Origin: Arenibacter catalasegens
GTDB taxonomy: Bacteria; Bacteroidota; Bacteroidia; Flavobacteriales; Flavobacteriaceae
Assembly (NCBI RefSeq): GCF_002909235.1
Contig: NZ_PHQQ01000005.1
Location: forward strand, 62,001 to 126,000
Direction of reading: 5' to 3'
Length of the DNA stretch: 64,000 bases
A program made the position numbers and the translations under genes. The notes below the pieces were generated by a model. It saw nothing but the letters and a program-made list of their open reading frames with translations. It searched no databases and was not told where the DNA came from. Of this stretch, positions 46,853 to 55,703 are shown one piece after another (within the stretch, counting starts at the first letter, position 1; each line of letters opens with the position of its first letter).

Positions 46853-47668
46853 ATGGACAAATTACCAAAAATTGCATTACCAGTAATATTCGCTGTCATA
46901 GTACTAGCCATATTAATCTCAAAATCGGCCATTACCATTGGCTCAGGTGAAGCCGGCGTGTTATATAAAACTTTTTCCGGTGGTGTGGTTACGGACGAAC
47001 CACCTTTGGGTGAAGGGTTCCACATTGTAGCACCTTGGAACAAGGTTTTTATATATGAGGTAAGGCAACAAGAAGTTTTAGAAAAAATGCAGGTATTGTC
47101 ATCCAACGGTCTTGAAATTAAGTTGGAAGCTTCAGCTTGGTTTGAGCCTAAAAGAGAATTTATAGGAAAACTGCACCAAGAAAAAGGTACGGAATATATA
47201 CAACGTGTATTATTGCCTACCATTAGGTCTGCTGCTAGAAGTGTTGTTGGAAGATATACTCCGGAACAACTGTATTCCAGTAAGAGGGATGCCATACAAC
47301 AGGAAATCTTTGAAGAAACTCAAAAAATTGTTGATGGCCAATACATTCAGCTCAACGAAATTTTGGTTAGGGATGTAACCCTTCCAGCTACCATTAAGGA
47401 GGCCATTGAACGTAAACTTAAGCAGGAACAAGAATCTTTGGAGTATGAATTTAGATTGGTCACTGCACAGAAGGAAGCCCAAAAGGTAATCATAGAGGCC
47501 CAAGGTAAAGCAGATGCCAATACTATTCTTAGTGCTTCCTTGACCGATAAGATATTGCGGGATAAAGGAATTGATGCCACCATTAAACTAGCAGAGTCCC
47601 CTAATTCTAAGGTGATAGTTATTGGTAGTGGGGATACGGGCATGCCTATTATCTTAGGTAATCAATAA
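46853..47668 (+). CDS. prohibitin/SPFH-family membrane protein
   Basis: 271 residues. A single N-terminal membrane anchor (LPVIFAVIVLAILISKSAIT) is followed by a band-7/prohibitin domain with LGEGFHIVAPWNKVFIYEVRQQE and ARSVVGRYTPEQLYS. A coiled coil follows (ERKLKQEQESLEYEFRLVTAQKEAQKVIIEAQGKADA). Such proteins form ring scaffolds in the membrane and modulate FtsH-type proteolysis elsewhere; the local function is unknown. Probably cotranscribed with the vWA gene. Confidence 0.92.
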   Translation: MDKLPKIALPVIFAVIVLAILISKSAITIGSGEAGVLYKTFSGGVVTDEPPLGEGFHIVAPWNKVFIYEVRQQEVLEKMQVLSSNGLEIKLEASAWFEPKREFIGKLHQEKGTEYIQRVLLPTIRSAARSVVGRYTPEQLYSSKRDAIQQEIFEETQKIVDGQYIQLNEILVRDVTLPATIKEAIERKLKQEQESLEYEFRLVTAQKEAQKVIIEAQGKADANTILSASLTDKILRDKGIDATIKLAESPNSKVIVIGSGDTGMPIILGNQ

Positions 47669-47679
47669 TAATTTAACAA

Positions 47680-47737
47680 TTTTGGAATAAATTGTTCTGT
47701 ATAAATTTCCCAAGGTTGAAAAATAGTTTTAATTTTG
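47680..47737 (+). promoter_or_regulatory. candidate promoters of the his operon
   Basis: Two options are visible. TTG (47682-47684), 17 bases, then TAAATTTC (47702-47709, one mismatch to consensus) would give a leader of about 30 nt before the leader peptide. An exact TAATTTTG (47730-47737) lacks a -33 box and would start transcription only a few bases before the leader ATG. Confidence 0.4.
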
Positions 47738-47744
47738 TCATATC

Positions 47745-47801
47745 ATGAAAAACACAAGGACACATCATCATCATTTCTTCACTTGCAGTCAAGCGAGCTA
47801 G
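47745..47801 (+). CDS. hisL: his operon leader peptide
   Basis: An 18-codon frame encoding MKNTRTHHHHFFTCSQAS, ending in TAG at 47799-47801. Four consecutive CAT codons (47763-47774) are the control codons. It lies 109 nt upstream of hisG and just ahead of alternative hairpins and a terminator. The peptide itself is unlikely to have a function; its translation measures charged His-tRNA. The arrangement corresponds to HisL of enterobacteria, though the peptide sequence is unrelated outside the His run. Confidence 0.85.
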   Translation: MKNTRTHHHHFFTCSQAS

Positions 47802-47857
47802 GAATGTATTGTTGTATCTAAACTATATTCTAACCCGTTTGAGCAATCAAACGGGTT
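47778..47857 (+). promoter_or_regulatory. his transcription attenuator (alternative hairpins 1:2, 2:3, 3:4)
   Basis: Region 1 (47778-47785) pairs with region 2 (47790-47797) with one mismatch. Region 2 (from 47789) also pairs with region 3 (47834-47842), TCAAGCGAG against CCCGTTTGA with one wobble and one mismatch. Region 3 pairs with region 4 to form the terminator. A ribosome stalled on the His codons would cover region 1, free region 2 for 2:3 pairing and prevent termination. Confidence 0.8.
47832..47857 (+). terminator. attenuator terminator upstream of hisG
   Basis: A perfect 11-bp stem (AACCCGTTTGA with TCAAACGGGTT) closes a GCAA tetraloop and is followed by TTTGTATTT. It stands 30 nt after the leader stop and 53 nt before hisG. 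Confidence 0.9.
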
Positions 47858-47910
47858 TTGTATTTAACAACCTGTTAGACTTGTTCAGGCCAAAAACAAA
47901 AAATTAAGAA

Positions 47911-48768
47911 ATGAAAAAAATTAGAATTGCTATCCAGAAAAGTGGCCGTTTAAATGAGGACTCACTTCAAATATTAAAAGATTGTGGTATTTCTATTGAT
48001 AACGGCAAAGACCAGCTAAAAGCCTCCTCTAGAAATTTTCCTTTGGAGGTGTTTTATCTTAGAAATGGGGATATTCCGCAATACTTAAGGGATGGGGTTG
48101 TAGATATTGCCATTATTGGTGAAAATGTCCTAATTGAAAAAGGTGATGATATTTCCATTGCTGAGAAACTGGGCTTTTCCAAATGCAAAGTGTCTTTAGC
48201 TATTCCTAAATCGGTCAAGTACAATTCAGTTAAAGATTTTGAAGGTAAAAGAATTGCTACTTCGTATCCAAATACCGTAAAAAATTACTTGGCCAGCAAA
48301 GGAGTAAAAGCAGATCTTCATATTATCAGCGGTTCTGTGGAAATTGCCCCCAATATTGGTTTGGCTGATGCCATTTGTGATATTGTCTCAAGTGGAAGTA
48401 CACTGTTCAAGAATAATTTGAAAGAAGTTGAGGTAATGTTGACCAGTGAGGCCGTACTTGCTGTTTCTCCGAAAATTTCCCAGGAAGGAACCGATTTGCT
48501 GGAAAATTTAAGATTTAGAATTCAATCCGTTTTACGCGCCAGACAGTCCAAATATGTTCTATTGAACGCTCCAAACAATAAATTGGATGAAATTATCGGT
48601 CTGCTGCCGGGTATGAGGAGTCCCACAGTACTGCCCTTGGCAGAAGAAGGATGGAGCTCTGTACATACTGTGATCAACAAGGACAAGTTCTGGGAAGTTA
48701 TCCAGGAGCTTAAAAAAGCCGGAGCTGAAGGTATATTGGTTTGCCCCATTGAAAAAATGGTGCTATAA
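47911..48768 (+). CDS. hisG: ATP phosphoribosyltransferase (long form)
   Basis: First committed step of histidine synthesis (ATP + PRPP to PR-ATP). At 285 residues it is the long, homohexameric form. Catalytic domains are at ~1-210 (IRIAIQKSGRLNEDS, KRIATSYPNTVKNYL, and the PRPP loop ADAICDIVSSGSTL). A C-terminal ACT-like regulatory domain at ~215-285 (LLPGMRSPTVLPL) binds histidine for feedback inhibition in this form. No HisZ is needed. First gene of the operon after the attenuator. Confidence 0.97.
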   Translation: MKKIRIAIQKSGRLNEDSLQILKDCGISIDNGKDQLKASSRNFPLEVFYLRNGDIPQYLRDGVVDIAIIGENVLIEKGDDISIAEKLGFSKCKVSLAIPKSVKYNSVKDFEGKRIATSYPNTVKNYLASKGVKADLHIISGSVEIAPNIGLADAICDIVSSGSTLFKNNLKEVEVMLTSEAVLAVSPKISQEGTDLLENLRFRIQSVLRARQSKYVLLNAPNNKLDEIIGLLPGMRSPTVLPLAEEGWSSVHTVINKDKFWEVIQELKKAGAEGILVCPIEKMVL

Positions 48769-48779
48769 CACTAAACCAT

Positions 48780-49211
48780 ATGGCTACTAAATTTCATATG
48801 GAGCTCATTCTAAGAGAGAATATAAATGATATTTTGCCTTTTGTACAAATGCTCAATAACGATAAGATTCCTGTAGAAATTCTTAATAAAAGATTACAGG
48901 ATATGCTCAAGGACGGATATCAATGTTTGGGTGCCTATGATAAAGAAGTACTTATTGGCATTTGTGGAATATGGGTTCTAAACAAATTATATGTAGGTAA
49001 ACATGTTGAACCGGACAATGTCTATGTAGTGCCAGAATTTCGCAGTTCTGGGGTTGGGAAATTAATGATGGATTGGGTATTTAATTATGCGGTAGAGATC
49101 GGATGCGATGCCTCTGAGGTAAACTGCTATATAAAAAATGAAAAAGGCGTTCAGTTTTGGAACAATCAAGGTTATAAAGCCATAGGTTACCACATGCAAA
49201 AAGTATTATAG
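48780..49211 (+). CDS. GNAT-family N-acetyltransferase inside the his operon
   Basis: 143 residues with the GNAT fold: VLIGICGIWVLNKLYVGKHVEPDNVYVVPEFRSSGVGKLMMDWVFNYAVEIGCDASEVNCYIKN. The acetyl-CoA loop is RSSGVGKLM, and the C-terminal GVQFWNNQGYKAIGYHM is usual. It is 11 nt after hisG and 2 nt before hisD, thus certainly cotranscribed and possibly translationally coupled. No histidine-pathway step needs an acetyltransferase, so its substrate is unknown. Confidence 0.9.
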   Translation: MATKFHMELILRENINDILPFVQMLNNDKIPVEILNKRLQDMLKDGYQCLGAYDKEVLIGICGIWVLNKLYVGKHVEPDNVYVVPEFRSSGVGKLMMDWVFNYAVEIGCDASEVNCYIKNEKGVQFWNNQGYKAIGYHMQKVL

Positions 49212-49213
49212 TA

Positions 49214-50497
49214 ATGAATAAAATATACGAACCACAGCGAGCAGACTGGAAGGAAGTTTTAAAAAGACCTACCCAAACTATTGCCGATATCGAGGATATG
49301 GTGAATGCTGTTTTTATGGAAATAAAGACTGGCGGCGATTCCGTGGTAAGCAACTATACCAAAAAGTTTGATGGAGTGGTTTTACCGGACGCATTTGTAT
49401 CGCGCTTAGAGATAGAGGAGTCTGAGAAAATGATTTCCAGCGATTTAAAGTCGGCCATTAAACAGGCTAAAAACAATATTGAAATATTTCATAAGGCACA
49501 AAAAACGGATAAAGTTTCCGTAGAAACTGCTAGTGGTGTCCAATGCTGGCAAGAAAAACGTCCAATACAAAAAGTAGGATTGTACATACCAGGAGGTACG
49601 GCGCCATTGTTTTCTACTATTTTAATGTTGGCAGTACCGGCGAATATTGCGGGGTGCCAGGAAATTATATTATGTACCCCTCCAAACAAGGAAGGAAAGG
49701 TACATCCGGCTATATTATATACGGCCAACCTATGTGGGGTTACCAAAATATTTAAAGTTGGAGGCATTCAGGCCATTGCCAGCATGACCTTTGGAACGGA
49801 AACAATTCCTCCCGTGTTTAAAATATTTGGGCCAGGAAATCAATTTGTAACCGTTGCCAAACAAATAGCCACTAAATACGGCGTGGCCATTGATATGCCC
49901 GCAGGACCCAGTGAACTTTTGGTGATGGCAGATGATACAGCCAATGCGGCATTTGTAGCATCAGATCTATTGAGTCAGGCAGAACATGGCGTGGATAGTC
50001 AGGTCATTTTGGTATCCACTTCCAAAAATCTGATAGATGCTGTTGAAGCGGAAGTGGCCGAGCAAATTAAAGTTTTACCCAGAAAAGAAATAGCCGAAAA
50101 AGCCATCGCCAATAGTAAATTAATCTACGTGGAAAGTCAACAGACAGCTGTAGATCTAATAAATGAATACGGTCCGGAACATTACATTCTATGTGTTAAA
50201 AATGAAGAATTTTTCCTAAGACAAACCTATAATGCCGGTTCTGTTTTTATTGGGAATTACACTCCGGAAAGTGCAGGGGATTACGCGTCTGGTACAAATC
50301 ATACCCTTCCTACCAACGGCTACGCAAAACAGTATAGCGGTGTTAACCTAGATAGTTTTATGAAAAGTATGACTTTTCAAAAAATATCGGAAAAAGGAAT
50401 TCAGGAAATTGGCAATACCATAGAGTTGATGGCCGAAGCAGAAGGGCTACAGGCCCATAAGAATGCAGTTACCCTGAGATTGAACAGTTTAAAATAA
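49214..50497 (+). CDS. hisD: histidinol dehydrogenase
   Basis: Zinc- and NAD-dependent oxidation of L-histidinol to L-histidine, the last two steps; 427 residues. KRPIQKVGLYIPGGTAPLFSTILM, the VGGIQAIASMTFGTETIPPVFKIFGPGNQFV signature, DMPAGPSELLV, and YGPEHYILC with the catalytic Glu-His are all in order. YASGTNHTLPTNGYAKQYSG provides further active-site residues. It starts 2 nt after the GNAT stop. Confidence 0.97.
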   Translation: MNKIYEPQRADWKEVLKRPTQTIADIEDMVNAVFMEIKTGGDSVVSNYTKKFDGVVLPDAFVSRLEIEESEKMISSDLKSAIKQAKNNIEIFHKAQKTDKVSVETASGVQCWQEKRPIQKVGLYIPGGTAPLFSTILMLAVPANIAGCQEIILCTPPNKEGKVHPAILYTANLCGVTKIFKVGGIQAIASMTFGTETIPPVFKIFGPGNQFVTVAKQIATKYGVAIDMPAGPSELLVMADDTANAAFVASDLLSQAEHGVDSQVILVSTSKNLIDAVEAEVAEQIKVLPRKEIAEKAIANSKLIYVESQQTAVDLINEYGPEHYILCVKNEEFFLRQTYNAGSVFIGNYTPESAGDYASGTNHTLPTNGYAKQYSGVNLDSFMKSMTFQKISEKGIQEIGNTIELMAEAEGLQAHKNAVTLRLNSLK

Positions 50498-50565
50498 TAG
50501 AAACTCAGAATTGATATAGCGGAGACAAACACAATTTGGGTACTATGCCGAAAAGTCTACATAGA

Positions 50566-51624
50566 ATGAAAACAAAAATATTCAACATCAATAATATAGT
50601 ACGGGAGAACGTAAAAGGATTGAGTCCTTATTCCTCTGCAAGGGATGAATATGTTTCGGACGGTTCAAAAATGGTATTTTTGGATGCCAATGAAAACCCT
50701 TTTGAATCCGGTGTGAACAGGTATCCAGATCCACATCAAAGACGTTTAAAGGAAGTCTTGGCAGAAAATAAGGGAGTTTCCAAACAACAACTTCTTTTAG
50801 GGAATGGTAGTGATGAGGTGTTGGATTTAATATTTCGTGCCTTTTGTGAACCCAAAGAGGACAATATTATCTCTTTACCACCAACCTATGGTATGTATAA
50901 GGTACTTGCAGGCATAAACAATGTAGAGAATAGAGAAGTATTGCTGACAAAGGAATTTGAACCCAATGTATCAGAAATACTCAAAGTAGCGGATCAGAAG
51001 AGTAAATTACTTTTTCTATGCTCACCAAATAATCCAACGGGAAATAGTTTCTCGAGCAGTAGTATTAGGGAATTGTTGGAAAATTTCAATGGATTGGTAG
51101 TGATCGATGAGGCTTATATCGACTTCTCAAGTGAAGTTAGCTGGATTTCGGAATTAAAAAACTATCCCAATTTAGTTGTAACCCAAACCTTATCCAAAGC
51201 CTATGGGATGGCAGGTATTAGATTGGGAACCTGCTATGCTTCGGAAGAAATAATAGGTGTATTGAATAAAATTAAACCTCCATACAATGTTAATGAATTA
51301 ACGCAGCAAAGAGCCTTAGAGAGGGTTTTGGATGTAAATGCTGTTAATTTGGAGGTAATAGATATTTTAACGGAAAGAGAGTCCCTTTTTAATGTGTTGC
51401 GACAAGTAGATTTTGTAGAAAATATATTTCCCACAGACGCAAATTTTATTTTGGCCAAGGTGGATGATGCCACAAAGAGATATAATCAACTTTTAAAAAT
51501 GGGCATCGTAGTTCGGAACAGAACCACACAGCCACTTTGTGAAAATACCCTGAGATTTACAGTGGGAACCAAAGAAGAAAATAAGAAATTAATAAGCGCA
51601 TTGCAAAATATAACAACCATATAA
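50566..51624 (+). CDS. hisC: histidinol-phosphate aminotransferase
   Basis: PLP-dependent transamination of imidazole-acetol phosphate. From the ATG at 50566 the protein has ~352 residues and begins just ahead of [18 protein letters not shown], the normal N-terminus. A TTG (50536) and an ATG (50545) upstream are in frame but add an unconserved tail. The Schiff-base lysine is in [16 protein letters not shown], and other motifs are [13 protein letters not shown] and [10 protein letters not shown]. It precedes hisB by 4 nt. Confidence 0.95.
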
Positions 51625-51628
51625 TATT

Positions 51629-52786
51629 ATGAGTCCGGATACGAACAAAAATGGTAAAAAAGTTCTATTTATAGATAGGGATGGCACCATTATTAAAGAA
51701 ACTATAGACGAGCAAATAGACGCTTTTGAAAAAATGGTATTTTACCCCAAGGCATTTACCTTTTTGGGGAAAATAGCAAAGGAGTTGGATTATGAATTGG
51801 TAATGATTACCAATCAGGATGGCTTGGGAACCGATATATTTCCTGAAGACACCTTTTGGCCGGTACATAATTTTATAATGAAATCCTTCGAAAACGAAGG
51901 GGTTGTTTTTGATAAAGTATTTCTAGATCGAACTTTCCCTCATGAAAATGCCAATACCAGAAAGCCCGGAACAGGTTTGTTAACGGCATATTTTTCGGAA
52001 GATTATGATTTGGAAAATTCCTTTGTCATAGGGGATCGATTAACGGATGTTGAATTGGCCAAGAATTTAGGGGCCAAAGGAATTTTCATTAATGACAATA
52101 CCAATTTAGGCACAGGGGAAATATCCGTCAAAAGAGATGAATTGGATAATTACATCGCCTTGGAAAGCAATGATTGGGAAAAGATATACGAGTTTTTAAA
52201 ATTGAAAGATCGGGTTTCTGAAATAACACGCAAAACCAATGAAACCGATATTTTTATAAAATTAAATTTAGACGGTACCGGTAAAGGCAATATAAGCACA
52301 GGGCTGGATTTCTTTGACCATATGCTAGATCAATTGGCTCGTCATGGTCAAATGGACCTAGAAATCAAGGTAAATGGGGATTTGGAAGTAGACGAGCATC
52401 ATACCATTGAAGATACGGCCATAGCTTTAGGCGAGGTGTTTCATAAAGCACTGGGCAATAAATTAGGTATAGAAAGATATGGATTTTGTCTGCCTATGGA
52501 CGACTGTCTGGCACAGGTAGCCATTGATTTTGGCGGACGAAACTGGTTAGTATGGGAAACAGAATTCAACAGGGAAATGATTGGAAAAATGCCAACTGAA
52601 ATGTTTTATCATTTCTTTAAATCATTCACCGATGGGGCCAAGGCCAACCTAAATATTAAAGCAGAAGGCAATAATGAACACCATAAAATAGAAGCTATTT
52701 TTAAGGCATTTGCCAAGGCCATTAAAATGGCCGTGAAGCGCGATGTTGAAAAAATGGTGCTTCCCAGTACCAAAGGGGTTTTATAG
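51629..52786 (+). CDS. hisB: bifunctional histidinol-phosphatase / imidazoleglycerol-phosphate dehydratase
   Basis: 385 residues. The N-terminal HAD phosphatase (~1-180) carries the nucleophile motif FIDRDGTII and later [20 protein letters not shown]. The C-terminal IGP dehydratase (~190-385) has the metal-binding [13 protein letters not shown] and [15 protein letters not shown] repeats and a second HH pair in [18 protein letters not shown]. It carries out steps 7 and 9 of the pathway. The fusion is as in enterobacteria and Bacteroidota. Confidence 0.96.
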
Positions 52787-52819
52787 GAGTTAAAATAGCT
52801 GTCCAAAGGACAAAGAAAA

Positions 52820-53410
52820 ATGAAGATAGTAATTATTGATTACGGGGCCGGGAATATTCAGAGCATTAAATTTGCCTTTCAACGCTTGGGCTTTGAGGCT
52901 ATATTAAGCCATGACCCAAACGAAATTATGACAGCCGATAAGGTGATTTTTCCAGGGGTAGGAGAGGCAAGCAGTGCCATGAAGAAATTGCGTGAAAGTA
53001 AATTGGACCAGATTATTCCTAAGCTAAAACAACCAGTGTTGGGAATTTGCCTGGGAATGCAATTAATGTGTCATTCTTCGGAAGAAGGCGATACCCAAGG
53101 CCTTGGCATTTTTGATGTAGATGTAGTTAAGTTCTCCAAAAAGGTCAAAGTTCCACAGATAGGATGGAATGAAATCACCAATTTAAAATCCGATCTATTC
53201 AAAAATATAAAAGAAAAGGAACACATCTATCTAGTACATAGTTTTTATGCCCCTTTATGCAAGGAAACCATTGCTGAAGCTGAATATGAATTAGGATATA
53301 GTGCCGCTCTAAAAAAGGATAATTTTTATGGAACTCAATTCCATCCAGAAAAGAGTAGCGAAGTGGGGGAGAAGATTCTTAAAAATTTTATTGATAGTCT
53401 CACCAGTTAA
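52820..53410 (+). CDS. hisH: imidazole glycerol phosphate synthase, glutaminase subunit
   Basis: Class I glutamine amidotransferase, 196 residues, supplying ammonia to HisF. The nucleophile cysteine lies in GICLGMQLM; the His and Glu of the triad are in YGTQFHPEKSSEVG. The N-terminal IDYGAGNIQSIKFAFQRLG is standard. It is 33 nt after hisB and 12 nt before hisA. Confidence 0.97.
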   Translation: MKIVIIDYGAGNIQSIKFAFQRLGFEAILSHDPNEIMTADKVIFPGVGEASSAMKKLRESKLDQIIPKLKQPVLGICLGMQLMCHSSEEGDTQGLGIFDVDVVKFSKKVKVPQIGWNEITNLKSDLFKNIKEKEHIYLVHSFYAPLCKETIAEAEYELGYSAALKKDNFYGTQFHPEKSSEVGEKILKNFIDSLTS

Positions 53411-53422
53411 TACAATATAAAC

Positions 53423-54154
53423 ATGAGAATAATACCGGCAATAGATATAATCGAAGGAAAATGTGTACGACTGTCCAAGGGCGATTACAACACCAAAAAA
53501 ATCTATAATGAACATCCTTTGGAGGTTGCCAAGAAGTTTGAAGCCCATGGTATTGAATACCTGCATTTGGTAGATTTGGACGGAGCTAAATCCAAACATA
53601 TCGTAAATCATAAAGTGTTGGAAAAAATTGCTTCCAATACCAACTTAAAAATAGACTTTGGCGGCGGACTTAAAACCGATGAGGATTTAAGGATTGCCTT
53701 TGAAAGCGGAGCCAATCAAATCACGGGCGGGAGTATTGCTGTTAAGGACAGGGAAACCTTTATATCTTGGATTAACAAATACAGTCCGGAGAAGATCATA
53801 CTAGGAGCGGATGCCAAAGATGAAATGGTGGCAGTATCTGGGTGGATGGAAGAATCCAAGGAGGAGCTGATTCCCTTTATCCAAACTTATCAAAAAGAAG
53901 GTGTTAGAGCTGTTATTTGTACCGACATTAGTAAGGATGGCATGCTGGAAGGTCCTTCATTTGATTTGTACCGTAAAATTTTAGAGGCCTGTGGGCCCCA
54001 TATATTATTAATTGCAAGTGGAGGTATTTCAACTTTTGAGGAACTCCCCAAATTGGCAGAATTGGGTTGCGAAGGAACCATAATCGGGAAAGCCATTTAC
54101 GAAAATAGAATTAGTTTAAAACAATTGGAAAAATTTATTCTCGACATCAATTAA
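53423..54154 (+). CDS. hisA: ProFAR isomerase
   Basis: 1-(5-phosphoribosyl)-5-[(5-phosphoribosylamino)methylideneamino]imidazole-4-carboxamide isomerase, 243 residues, (beta/alpha)8 barrel. The acid-base pair is visible as the Asp in [14 protein letters not shown] and that in ICTDISKDG. The phosphate-binding loops are [12 protein letters not shown] and [13 protein letters not shown]. Homologous to hisF, 91 nt downstream. Confidence 0.97.
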
Positions 54155-54245
54155 AAAAAGCTTGTTGTTGAATTAGTGGAGCTCGCTATTTGTACTTTTA
54201 AAACCGTAAAGTGTGGCTATAATTTCCAAAAAATAGAAATAGCAA

Positions 54246-55001
54246 ATGTTAACAAAAAGAATAATCCCTTGTTTGGATATTAAAAATGGCAGAACTGTAA
54301 AAGGGATAAATTTTGTGGATTTGCGGGATGCTGGTGATCCAGTGGAACTGGCTGAAATCTATGCGAAGACAGGAGCGGATGAATTGGTCTTTTTAGATAT
54401 CTCTGCCACAGAAGAACGGAGAAGAACTTTGGCAGATTTAGTACTGCGTGTTGCCGAAAAAGTAAATATTCCCTTTACCGTAGGTGGTGGAATTTCATCC
54501 GTAAAGGACGTTGATATATTACTGCATAATGGAGCGGATAAAGTATCTATAAATTCATCCGCCGTCAAAAATCCCAAATTGATCAACGATCTTGTAGCCA
54601 AATTTGGTTCCCAATGTATTGTTGTAGCCATAGATGCCAAACAAATTAATGGAGAATGGATCGTGCATTTAGTAGGAGGGAAGGTTCCTACTGAATTAAA
54701 TCTTTTCACTTGGGCGAAGGAAGTGGAGGAACGTGGGGCAGGGGAAATTTTGTTTACCTCCATGGACCATGATGGTACAAAGGACGGGTTTGCGAATGAA
54801 GCTTTGGCCAGATTATCCACCGAATTGAACATTCCTATAATTGCATCTGGCGGCGCTGGTAATATGCAACATTTTACGGATACATTTGTTGAAGGAAAAG
54901 CAGATGCAGCTTTAGCTGCGAGCGTTTTTCATTTTAAGGAAATAGAAATTAAAGACTTAAAGGAAGAGTTAAAAAGAAATAATATTCTCGTTAGACTATA
55001 A
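54246..55001 (+). CDS. hisF: imidazole glycerol phosphate synthase, cyclase subunit
   Basis: Cyclase partner of HisH; 251 residues, (beta/alpha)8 barrel. The catalytic aspartates lie in [18 protein letters not shown] and [13 protein letters not shown]. Phosphate loops are [14 protein letters not shown] and [13 protein letters not shown]. It produces IGP and AICAR, linking to purine synthesis. Confidence 0.97.
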
Positions 55002-55067
55002 TCAATTTAGACAATAGATCAGCTGAATTAGTGCTAACGCTTCTTATTACAAACCTAAAAATCCAAT

Positions 55068-55703
55068 ATGGAATCCAAAATCATGAACATAGACTTCAAC
55101 AAAAATAGCGACGGCTTAGTCCCTGCAATAGTACAGGATGCGCTTACCAAAAATGTACTTATGCTTGGATATATGAACCAAGAGGCTTATAAAAAAACAA
55201 ACGAAAGTGGTAAAGTAACCTTCTACAGTCGCACTAAAAACAGATTGTGGACAAAAGGAGAGGAAAGCGGTAATTTTTTAAATCTAGTGGATATTAAACT
55301 GGACTGCGATAATGATACCCTGCTAGTGATGGTCCAACCCGTTGGCCCAACCTGTCATAAAGGAACCGATACTTGTTGGGGCGAAGAAAACAAATCCTCC
55401 TTCGGGTTTATTTCAGAATTGGAAAATATTATTCAAAATAGAAAAGATCAGGCCGATGGAAAAATTCCAATTCCGGAAGGAGTAAAGCCCAGCTATGTTT
55501 CCTCTCTGTTCAAAAGCGGGATTAACAAAGTAGCCCAAAAAGTAGGAGAAGAAGCGGTAGAGGTTGTCATCGAAGCCAAGGATGATAATGATCAACTGTT
55601 CAAAGATGAAAGCGCCGATCTACTGTTCCATTATCTAATATTACTTCAGGCAAAGGGGTTTAAACTTCAGGACATCGTTAGTGTTTTGCAGTCGCGCCAT
55701 TAA
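55068..55703 (+). CDS. hisI: bifunctional phosphoribosyl-AMP cyclohydrolase / phosphoribosyl-ATP pyrophosphatase
   Basis: HisIE fusion of 211 residues, steps 2 and 3. Residues ~1-115 are the cyclohydrolase with zinc-binding cysteines in CDNDTLLVMVQPVGPTCHKGTDTCWG. Residues ~118-211 are the MazG-like pyrophosphohydrolase with QKVGEEAVEVVIEAKDD and ESADLLFHYLILLQ. It is the last gene of the operon; no strong terminator is evident after it. Confidence 0.97.
   Translation: MESKIMNIDFNKNSDGLVPAIVQDALTKNVLMLGYMNQEAYKKTNESGKVTFYSRTKNRLWTKGEESGNFLNLVDIKLDCDNDTLLVMVQPVGPTCHKGTDTCWGEENKSSFGFISELENIIQNRKDQADGKIPIPEGVKPSYVSSLFKSGINKVAQKVGEEAVEVVIEAKDDNDQLFKDESADLLFHYLILLQAKGFKLQDIVSVLQSRH

Follow-up and report, generated by a model that had tools for sequence, protein, structure and literature searches.

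The his operon of Arenibacter catalasegens, a member of the Flavobacteriaceae, is preceded by a short reading frame with a run of histidine codons and by a set of overlapping hairpins, and this locus raises the question of whether the arrangement constitutes a ribosome-operated switch in front of hisG, through which base pairings it would act and how widely it occurs in the Bacteroidota. The question was addressed computationally in the window, by which we mean the whole stretch of 64,000 nucleotides analysed, and in the corresponding regions of other genomes, through the anatomy of the element, its conservation, the replacement of its helices between lineages and its fold preferences. On this basis the element very probably attenuates transcription of the his operon in the classical, ribosome-mediated way, a known kind of control that seems to be little described in the Bacteroidota.

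Organization of the his leader region

The operon (47911-55703) comprises hisG, an ORF without assignment, hisD, hisC, hisB, hisH, hisA, hisF and hisIE, all on the + strand, as are the leader features described below. The first structural gene, hisG (47911..48768), matches TIGR00070 with 186.9 bits against a cut-off of 75.75, and its closest named relative is the hisG of A. arenosicollis (98%). The ORF of 143 amino acids between hisG and hisD (48780..49211) appears GNAT-like by eye and yielded no match to NCBIfam at 1e-10, while hisD, hisC, the bifunctional hisB, hisH, hisA, hisF and hisIE (49214..55703) each show at least one NCBIfam match above cut-off. At a distance of 109 nt upstream of hisG lies a leader ORF (47745..47801) of 18 codons plus a TAG stop codon (47799-47801), which encodes the peptide MKNTRTHHHHFFTCSQAS and contains four consecutive CAT codons (47763..47774), the presumptive sensing codons.

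The 136-nt region containing the element folds with z = -4.5, none of 200 shuffles folding equally well. A candidate protector hairpin, 1:2 (47782..47797), is formed in fold calculations by 47782-47786 with 47793-47797 (5 bp, -5.4 kcal/mol). Region 2 (47789..47797), the 5' arm of the antiterminator according to folds and duplexes, lies within the last leader codons and pairs with region 3 through 47789-47795 with 47836-47842, plus G47797-C47835, leaving A47796 unpaired. Between both arms, folds reveal a spacer hairpin (47801..47831) that makes the antiterminator compact; across 78 distinct sequences, spacers give a mean z of -1.56 against their own mononucleotide shuffles, with z above 0 in 4, a result that rests on per-sequence folds, the MAFFT columns in the spacer being unreliable. 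Region 3 (47832..47842) is the arm common to the antiterminator, with region 2, and the terminator, with region 4 (47847..47857), with which it forms an 11-bp stem closed by a GCAA loop (47843-47846; -15.7 kcal/mol) and followed by TTTTGTATTT. The ensuing U-rich tract (TTTTGTATTTA, 47856..47866) is broken by G and A. Sequence and fold thus indicate a terminator of intrinsic type between the leader and the first structural gene, and the motif is present in all 98 loci of the closest set analysed (see below).

A preliminary description of this DNA had proposed an 18-codon leader with four consecutive CAT codons before hisG and an 11-bp, GCAA-loop terminator at 47832-47857, and both are borne out; its coordinates are correct overall to within a few bases, save for hairpin 1:2, which exists but is confined to the 5 bp given above rather than spanning 47778-47797. 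The antiterminator helix that it placed at 47789-47797 with 47834-47842 likewise exists with a slightly different extent, given the lack of a partner for A47796 and an outermost pair at G47797-C47835, and the spacer hairpin was absent from it.

Upstream of the leader, TAATTTTG (47730..47737) is a candidate promoter element, matching at -15 from the leader ATG the pattern TANNTTT, which we take to be the flavobacterial -7 consensus. TANNTTT occurs at this position in 31 of 56 loci, in 9 of the 56 with a final G, and no matching -33 element was seen at the usual spacing from the 47730..47737 box. If functional, the box would place the transcript start a few nucleotides before the leader ATG and, since only 7 nt separate the two, the leader RNA may be nearly leaderless. 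In four other loci (L130, L135, L143, and L151), a similar box is visible by eye roughly 10-25 nt farther upstream.

Conservation within the Flavobacteriaceae

Conservation was assessed in 98 loci comprising the window's own (L012), those of its genus, for which 17 further Arenibacter genomes were searched besides its own, and those of 80 named relatives. At least three consecutive His codons (CAT or CAC) precede hisG in 95 of these loci, and in the other three (L066, L082, and L097) one codon of the run is replaced. A small ORF in which at least three of five codons specify His, at most 450 nt from hisG, was found in 97/98 loci and, in four further sets, in 29/30, 24/24, 22/22, and 8/12, against 21/1960, 25/600, 4/480, 4/440, and 0/240 in shuffles of the same five sets and 5/98 on the reverse strands of the first. 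The 98 loci are not mutually independent, since they include several strains of one genus, and further instances of non-independence among loci are L142 with L045 and L148 with L098. Outside the His run, leader sequences vary widely.

In an alignment of 47 of 48 non-redundant loci (L066 was left out, and the window stands for L012), region 3 (ACCCGTTTGAG) is invariant, and regions 2 and 4 vary against it by G-U wobbles. A frozen region 3 with wobbling partners is the pattern that would be expected of an arm with two partners. Outside this alignment, region 3 starts with GCCCG in L066, L136, and L137 and with ATCCG in L151. Helix 2:3 shows 96.3% of cells paired, and shifting it by one to three columns lowers the value to 19-55%, although these figures draw on loci selected by motif: the second alignment was picked by a pattern requiring the region 2 motif, which 109 of 122 loci (78 distinct) matched and 13 did not, so that its count of 78 of 78 is partly circular. 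When submitted to the duplex test, the 13 loci without the motif gave -6.9 to -17.3 kcal/mol, with p from 0 to 0.2. Antiterminator and terminator have one arm in common and exclude each other, the alignment-based part of this finding being partly circular.

Double-sided changes in helix 2:3 were not found within the family because region 3 is frozen, and the covariation argument hence rests on replacement between lineages. The consensus fold of the 47 aligned sequences returned only the terminator, alifold on the region 2 to 3 segment returned only helix 2:3, and a column-shuffle control of the latter alignment produced identical energies and was hence uninformative. In three loci (L024, L027, and L031), a stop codon stands in place of the Gln codon of region 2 and shortens the leader, and the full helix 2:3 is retained with a change from C-G to U-G, which indicates that region 2 is conserved as RNA and not as peptide. 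Loss of the His run and of the 2:3 pairing in close relatives, the outcome that the preliminary description had named as damaging to its case, was looked for, and both features proved to be retained. By eye, region 2 of L151 ends in A where its relatives have G, its region 3 carries U for C at the partner position and its region 4 is altered to match, making it a candidate three-way compensatory change that lies outside the duplex scoring.

Replacement of helix arms between lineages

The full arrangement was tested in 186 loci (98 near the window and 88 from a draw across the phylum), of which 160 have a leader, a terminator and a testable segment; 16 are without a terminator, 4 have too short a segment and 6 are without a leader. 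The pairing between regions 2 and 3 surpasses shuffles at the 5% level in 99 of the 160 (68/97, 10/16, 9/24, 9/17, and 3/6 by set), with p = 0.07 for the window itself, and the excess over shuffles at single loci is often modest. The 154 loci whose terminator is strong and whose segment measures 25 nt or more form 11 clusters by region 3 sequence, including CCCGUUUGA, GGCUUACC, CCCCGGC, and UCCUACCUG, some of them alike.

When arms were swapped among one representative per cluster, regions 2 and 3 from the same locus paired at -10.6 kcal/mol compared with -8.0 (sd 0.67) for permuted combinations, and none of 20,000 permutations reached the former value. A region's own partner ranks first in 2 of the 11 clusters and among the top three in 8, and for L001, which represents the window's cluster, it ranks 4th of 11. 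The strongest pairing of all clusters is that of L118, which begins right at its His codons; on removal of L118, 7 of 20,000 permutations are as good, and the count rises to 37 of 20,000 once two similar clusters are left out too. Furthermore, in 200 random draws of members from six clusters, the own pairing always fell among the best 36 of 720 permutations and was the very best in 131 draws. Other lineages hence keep the logic of the switch with different, mutually complementary arms.

Fold preferences and proposed mechanism

The RNA of the window was folded in states imposed by a ribosome with assumed footprints. When the ribosome occupies the last His codon and region 4 is not yet made, helix 2:3 encloses the spacer hairpin (-13.5 kcal/mol, with 7.7 pairs expected in 2:3), and moving the ribosome to the first His codon gives the same fold (7.6 expected pairs). 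With no ribosome, a larger hairpin containing region 2 wins and only 1.1 expected 2:3 pairs remain, and a ribosome placed at the stop codon allows the terminator alone to form. Completion of region 4 tips the balance towards the terminator in all states folded, to the extent that even a stalled ribosome leaves no 2:3 pairs (-22.2 kcal/mol). The switch would therefore have to be kinetic and decided during transcription, as in other attenuators.

Across three sets of 47, 24, and 33 loci, pairing of region 3 with upstream RNA in the stalled state amounts to 9.5, 9.4, and 8.1 expected pairs, compared with 5.1, 4.7, and 4.7 after shuffling of the segment, and it surpasses shuffles at the 5% level in 70 of 104 loci. 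This pairing is greater in the stalled than in the stop-codon state in all loci (47/47, 24/24, and 33/33), a comparison that is partly built in, given that footprints were assumed and that the covered segment was removed before folding. The constant feature of the computed states is that region 2 remains accessible when the ribosome stalls and is covered when the ribosome has reached the stop codon. Protection by hairpin 1:2, on the other hand, is variably effective in relatives. The hairpin is present in the fold of the window and absent from the consensus fold of the 47 sequences, and the state without a ribosome loses more than one region 3 pair with upstream RNA in 23/47, 18/24, and 23/33 loci. 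The preliminary description had the stalled ribosome mask region 1, and such masking is not the conserved core of the mechanism: in the window, helix 2:3 outcompetes 1:2 even when the ribosome sits on the first His codon and region 1 is free, and the effect of removing the ribosome varies among loci.

Stalling, termination, and a response to histidine are what we infer from these calculations, in the following form. RNA polymerase would make the leader RNA with a ribosome following closely behind. With ample charged His-tRNA, the ribosome would reach the TAG at 47799 and cover region 2 (47789-47797), region 3 would pair with region 4 and transcription would stop before hisG. With His-tRNA in short supply, the ribosome would stall on the CAT run and leave region 2, which starts 14 nt behind the last His codon, exposed. 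Region 2 would then capture region 3 immediately after its synthesis, with the spacer hairpin between them, thereby blocking the terminator and allowing transcription of the his genes. In the absence of translation, hairpin 1:2, with the His codons paired to the spacer, could hold region 2 and favour termination in this species, a third state that is weak in many relatives.

Other readings of the same elements have to be weighed against this mechanism. Direct sensing of histidine or uncharged His-tRNA by a T-box or metabolite riboswitch, with the small ORF as an incidental feature, has a parallel in the Firmicutes, where the accessible text of a comparative study describes histidine T-boxes as common before his genes (PMC9413887). 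No Rfam family, T-box included, reaches its gathering threshold anywhere in the window, however, and among the 15 hits that 47650-47960 gives up to E 10 there is neither a T-box nor a histidine element; the same holds for the Rfam His_leader covariance model, with no gathering match in the window and no place among the 15. The persistence of the His run in lineages whose RNA sequence is otherwise replaced further argues against such a sensor, which we regard as extremely unlikely. It is hardly more credible that the hairpin is a constitutive weak terminator or processing element and that the His-rich ORF encodes an unrelated small protein. The often just modest pairing excess of single loci would suit such a reading, yet region 2 is conserved as RNA, to the point of accommodating a stop codon in L024, L027, and L031, it changes together with region 3 between lineages, and leader sequences beyond the His run differ widely.

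Control of hisG translation, by coupling or by masking of its start site, in place of termination is somewhat less implausible, although still very improbable. Attenuators acting on translation have been described, as the available part of the same study relates (PMC9413887), and among the 186 loci some from other lineages yielded no terminator (16, plus the 4 with short segments). Against it, the window and its 97 sister loci all carry a terminator of intrinsic type between leader and hisG, and the 5' arm of this terminator is the partner of region 2.

Distribution in the Bacteroidota

In family f1, a covariance model derived from the 47 aligned sequences finds a match (E 0.01 or better) in 349 of 397 genomes, as counted per genome irrespective of position before hisG, and in 306 of the 330 of good quality. 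In the genome of the window, the his site scores 120.7 bits and the next match 32.1 bits, and among the additional matches present in six genomes none exceeds 42.1 bits, whereas the top-scoring match of each genome reaches at least 84.5. Weak matches in the window's own genome (L230, L236, L242, and L248) were considered as further his leaders and rejected, as by eye they look like coding sequence or a plain terminator.

The draw across the phylum comprised 247 genomes, 213 of them with hisG, from which 123 upstream regions, chosen non-randomly, were analysed. A His leader is present in 99 of the 123 (29/30, 24/24, 22/22, 8/14, 3/20, and 13/13 by set). In other families it was found in 3 of 22 loci, made up of 20 new ones plus L186 and L189, which had given no hisG anchor in the earlier analysis of the draw, and no His leader was found in families f17 (0/8) and f28 (0/4). 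In three loci of family f8 (L158, L162, and L173), the leader ends in HHFHHSS and is followed by a similar, more complex structured sequence, in which a terminator scan found none.

A possible Rho-dependent variant in family f23

Family f23 (L101-L105, L111, L113, L115, L120, L126, L128, L129, L177, L181, L213, and L249-L261) departs from this organization. Its hisG regions carry a His-rich leader in 28 of 28 cases when GTG and TTG starts are allowed, with at most three codons after the last His in 24 of them. In the first 70 nt after the stop codon, C is more than twice G in 27/28 loci, as opposed to 0/104 in the terminator-bearing class, with means of 6.5% G and 24.7% C. The same 70 nt fold at only 0 to -3.1 kcal/mol in 25/28 loci, the exceptions (L126, L129, and L258) having a hairpin of -7.9 to -10.7 kcal/mol. 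As controls, the C bias appears in 129 of 1875 windows of 60 nt upstream of these leaders and in 8 of 28 stretches of 60 nt directly before the leader. The idea arose from 15 of the 28 loci, and 12 of the 13 fetched afterwards show both features.

These features suggest a variant in which a ribosome stalled near the stop codon would cover a Rho loading site in the C-rich, G-poor 60-70 nt that follow. Coverage of a Rho loading site by the ribosome is likewise the principle of TnaC, and the f23 version would answer histidine shortage. In the available text on mycobacterial cys leaders, Rho has been proposed by authors who call their prediction rather weak, and those leaders resemble f23 in having cognate codons near the stop, no conserved hairpin and pyrimidine motifs, but they concern cysteine in another phylum and are unlike the window's own element (PMC1262725). 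Interference of leader ORF translation with Rho is also described, in the portion consulted, for Salmonella speF (PMC6386406). It is conceivable, at somewhat less than even chances, that leaders with His codons are old in the phylum and have had their output stage swapped, with an intrinsic terminator in most of the sampled lineages that bear a leader and Rho in f23. The f23 variant is a more surprising lead than the element of the window.

Relation to known attenuation systems

In the enterobacterial his attenuator, which combines the HisL leader with a set of hairpins designated A to F, a run of His codons in a short leader before hisG, an intrinsic terminator, and a ribosome-controlled choice of hairpins are found as they are here, but the peptide is unrelated outside the His run and the A-to-F set differs from the 1:2, 2:3, and 3:4 pairings plus spacer hairpin of the window. 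In its layout, with region 2 at the end of the leader, where a ribosome at the stop codon covers it, and a 2:3 antiterminator opposed to a 3:4 terminator, the element resembles the trp attenuator of the trpL type, from which it differs in sensing, as proposed here, histidine, in its variably effective protector, and in the spacer hairpin inside 2:3. The earlier view that the element works exactly as the enterobacterial his leader is hence too strong, the layout being closer to that of the trp attenuator.

Among the matches listed in a literature search that left most subscription journals outside its reach, no paper on a his attenuator in the Bacteroidota was present, although a comparative survey by Lopatovskaya et al. 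in 2010 reportedly covers several phyla and may include this attenuator. Reference to that survey is made in PMC4833913 and PMC10272879. The suggestion that such elements are poorly described in this phylum is accordingly in line with the matches listed and is tempered by that survey and by work on Flavobacterium psychrophilum, of the same family, where strong clues to leader-peptide attenuation of amino-acid operons were reported in 2021; in the accessible main text of that work, the word histidine occurs 0 times and no mechanism is worked out (PMC9723704). Leader-like ORFs are mentioned in Bacteroides in the part of another report that was available (PMC7366714), and the strings "Bacteroid" and "Flavobacteri" are without occurrence in the accessible part of a further one (PMC2965389). 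The Firmicutes possess His attenuators whose leader peptides contain three to five consecutive His codons and which share with the present element the His run and a terminator and antiterminator before the his operon, but they belong to another phylum and, according to the available text, to a study of 17 genomes (PMC9413887).

These results suggest that much of the Bacteroidota commonly controls histidine synthesis by ribosome-coupled attenuation, a mechanism known above all from enterobacteria. As no family of Rfam 15 matches the attenuator, one could be added. Translation in this phylum starts largely without Shine-Dalgarno pairing, and these leaders could serve as natural reporters for testing ribosome-polymerase coupling there. 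A region 3 that its two partners keep almost invariant within the family, and different arms in distant lineages, provide a record of how the sequence of a switch can change without loss of function.

Two further leaders were observed in the window's own genome. Before trpE, on the minus strand of contig C16 (L190), a trp leader (MKNMVSNTWWWSNLRKTS) is followed by a GGCUUGUC...GACAAGCC terminator, and its spacer includes a stretch (ATTGTAGTATAACTATAT) that closely resembles the one in the his leaders. Before ilvD, on contig C45 (L193, 1079-1250), an ilv leader (MKLNENLISVVIIVP) precedes a GATACAGGC terminator, the 5' arm of which is able to base-pair with a stretch (TGATACGG) directly after the leader.
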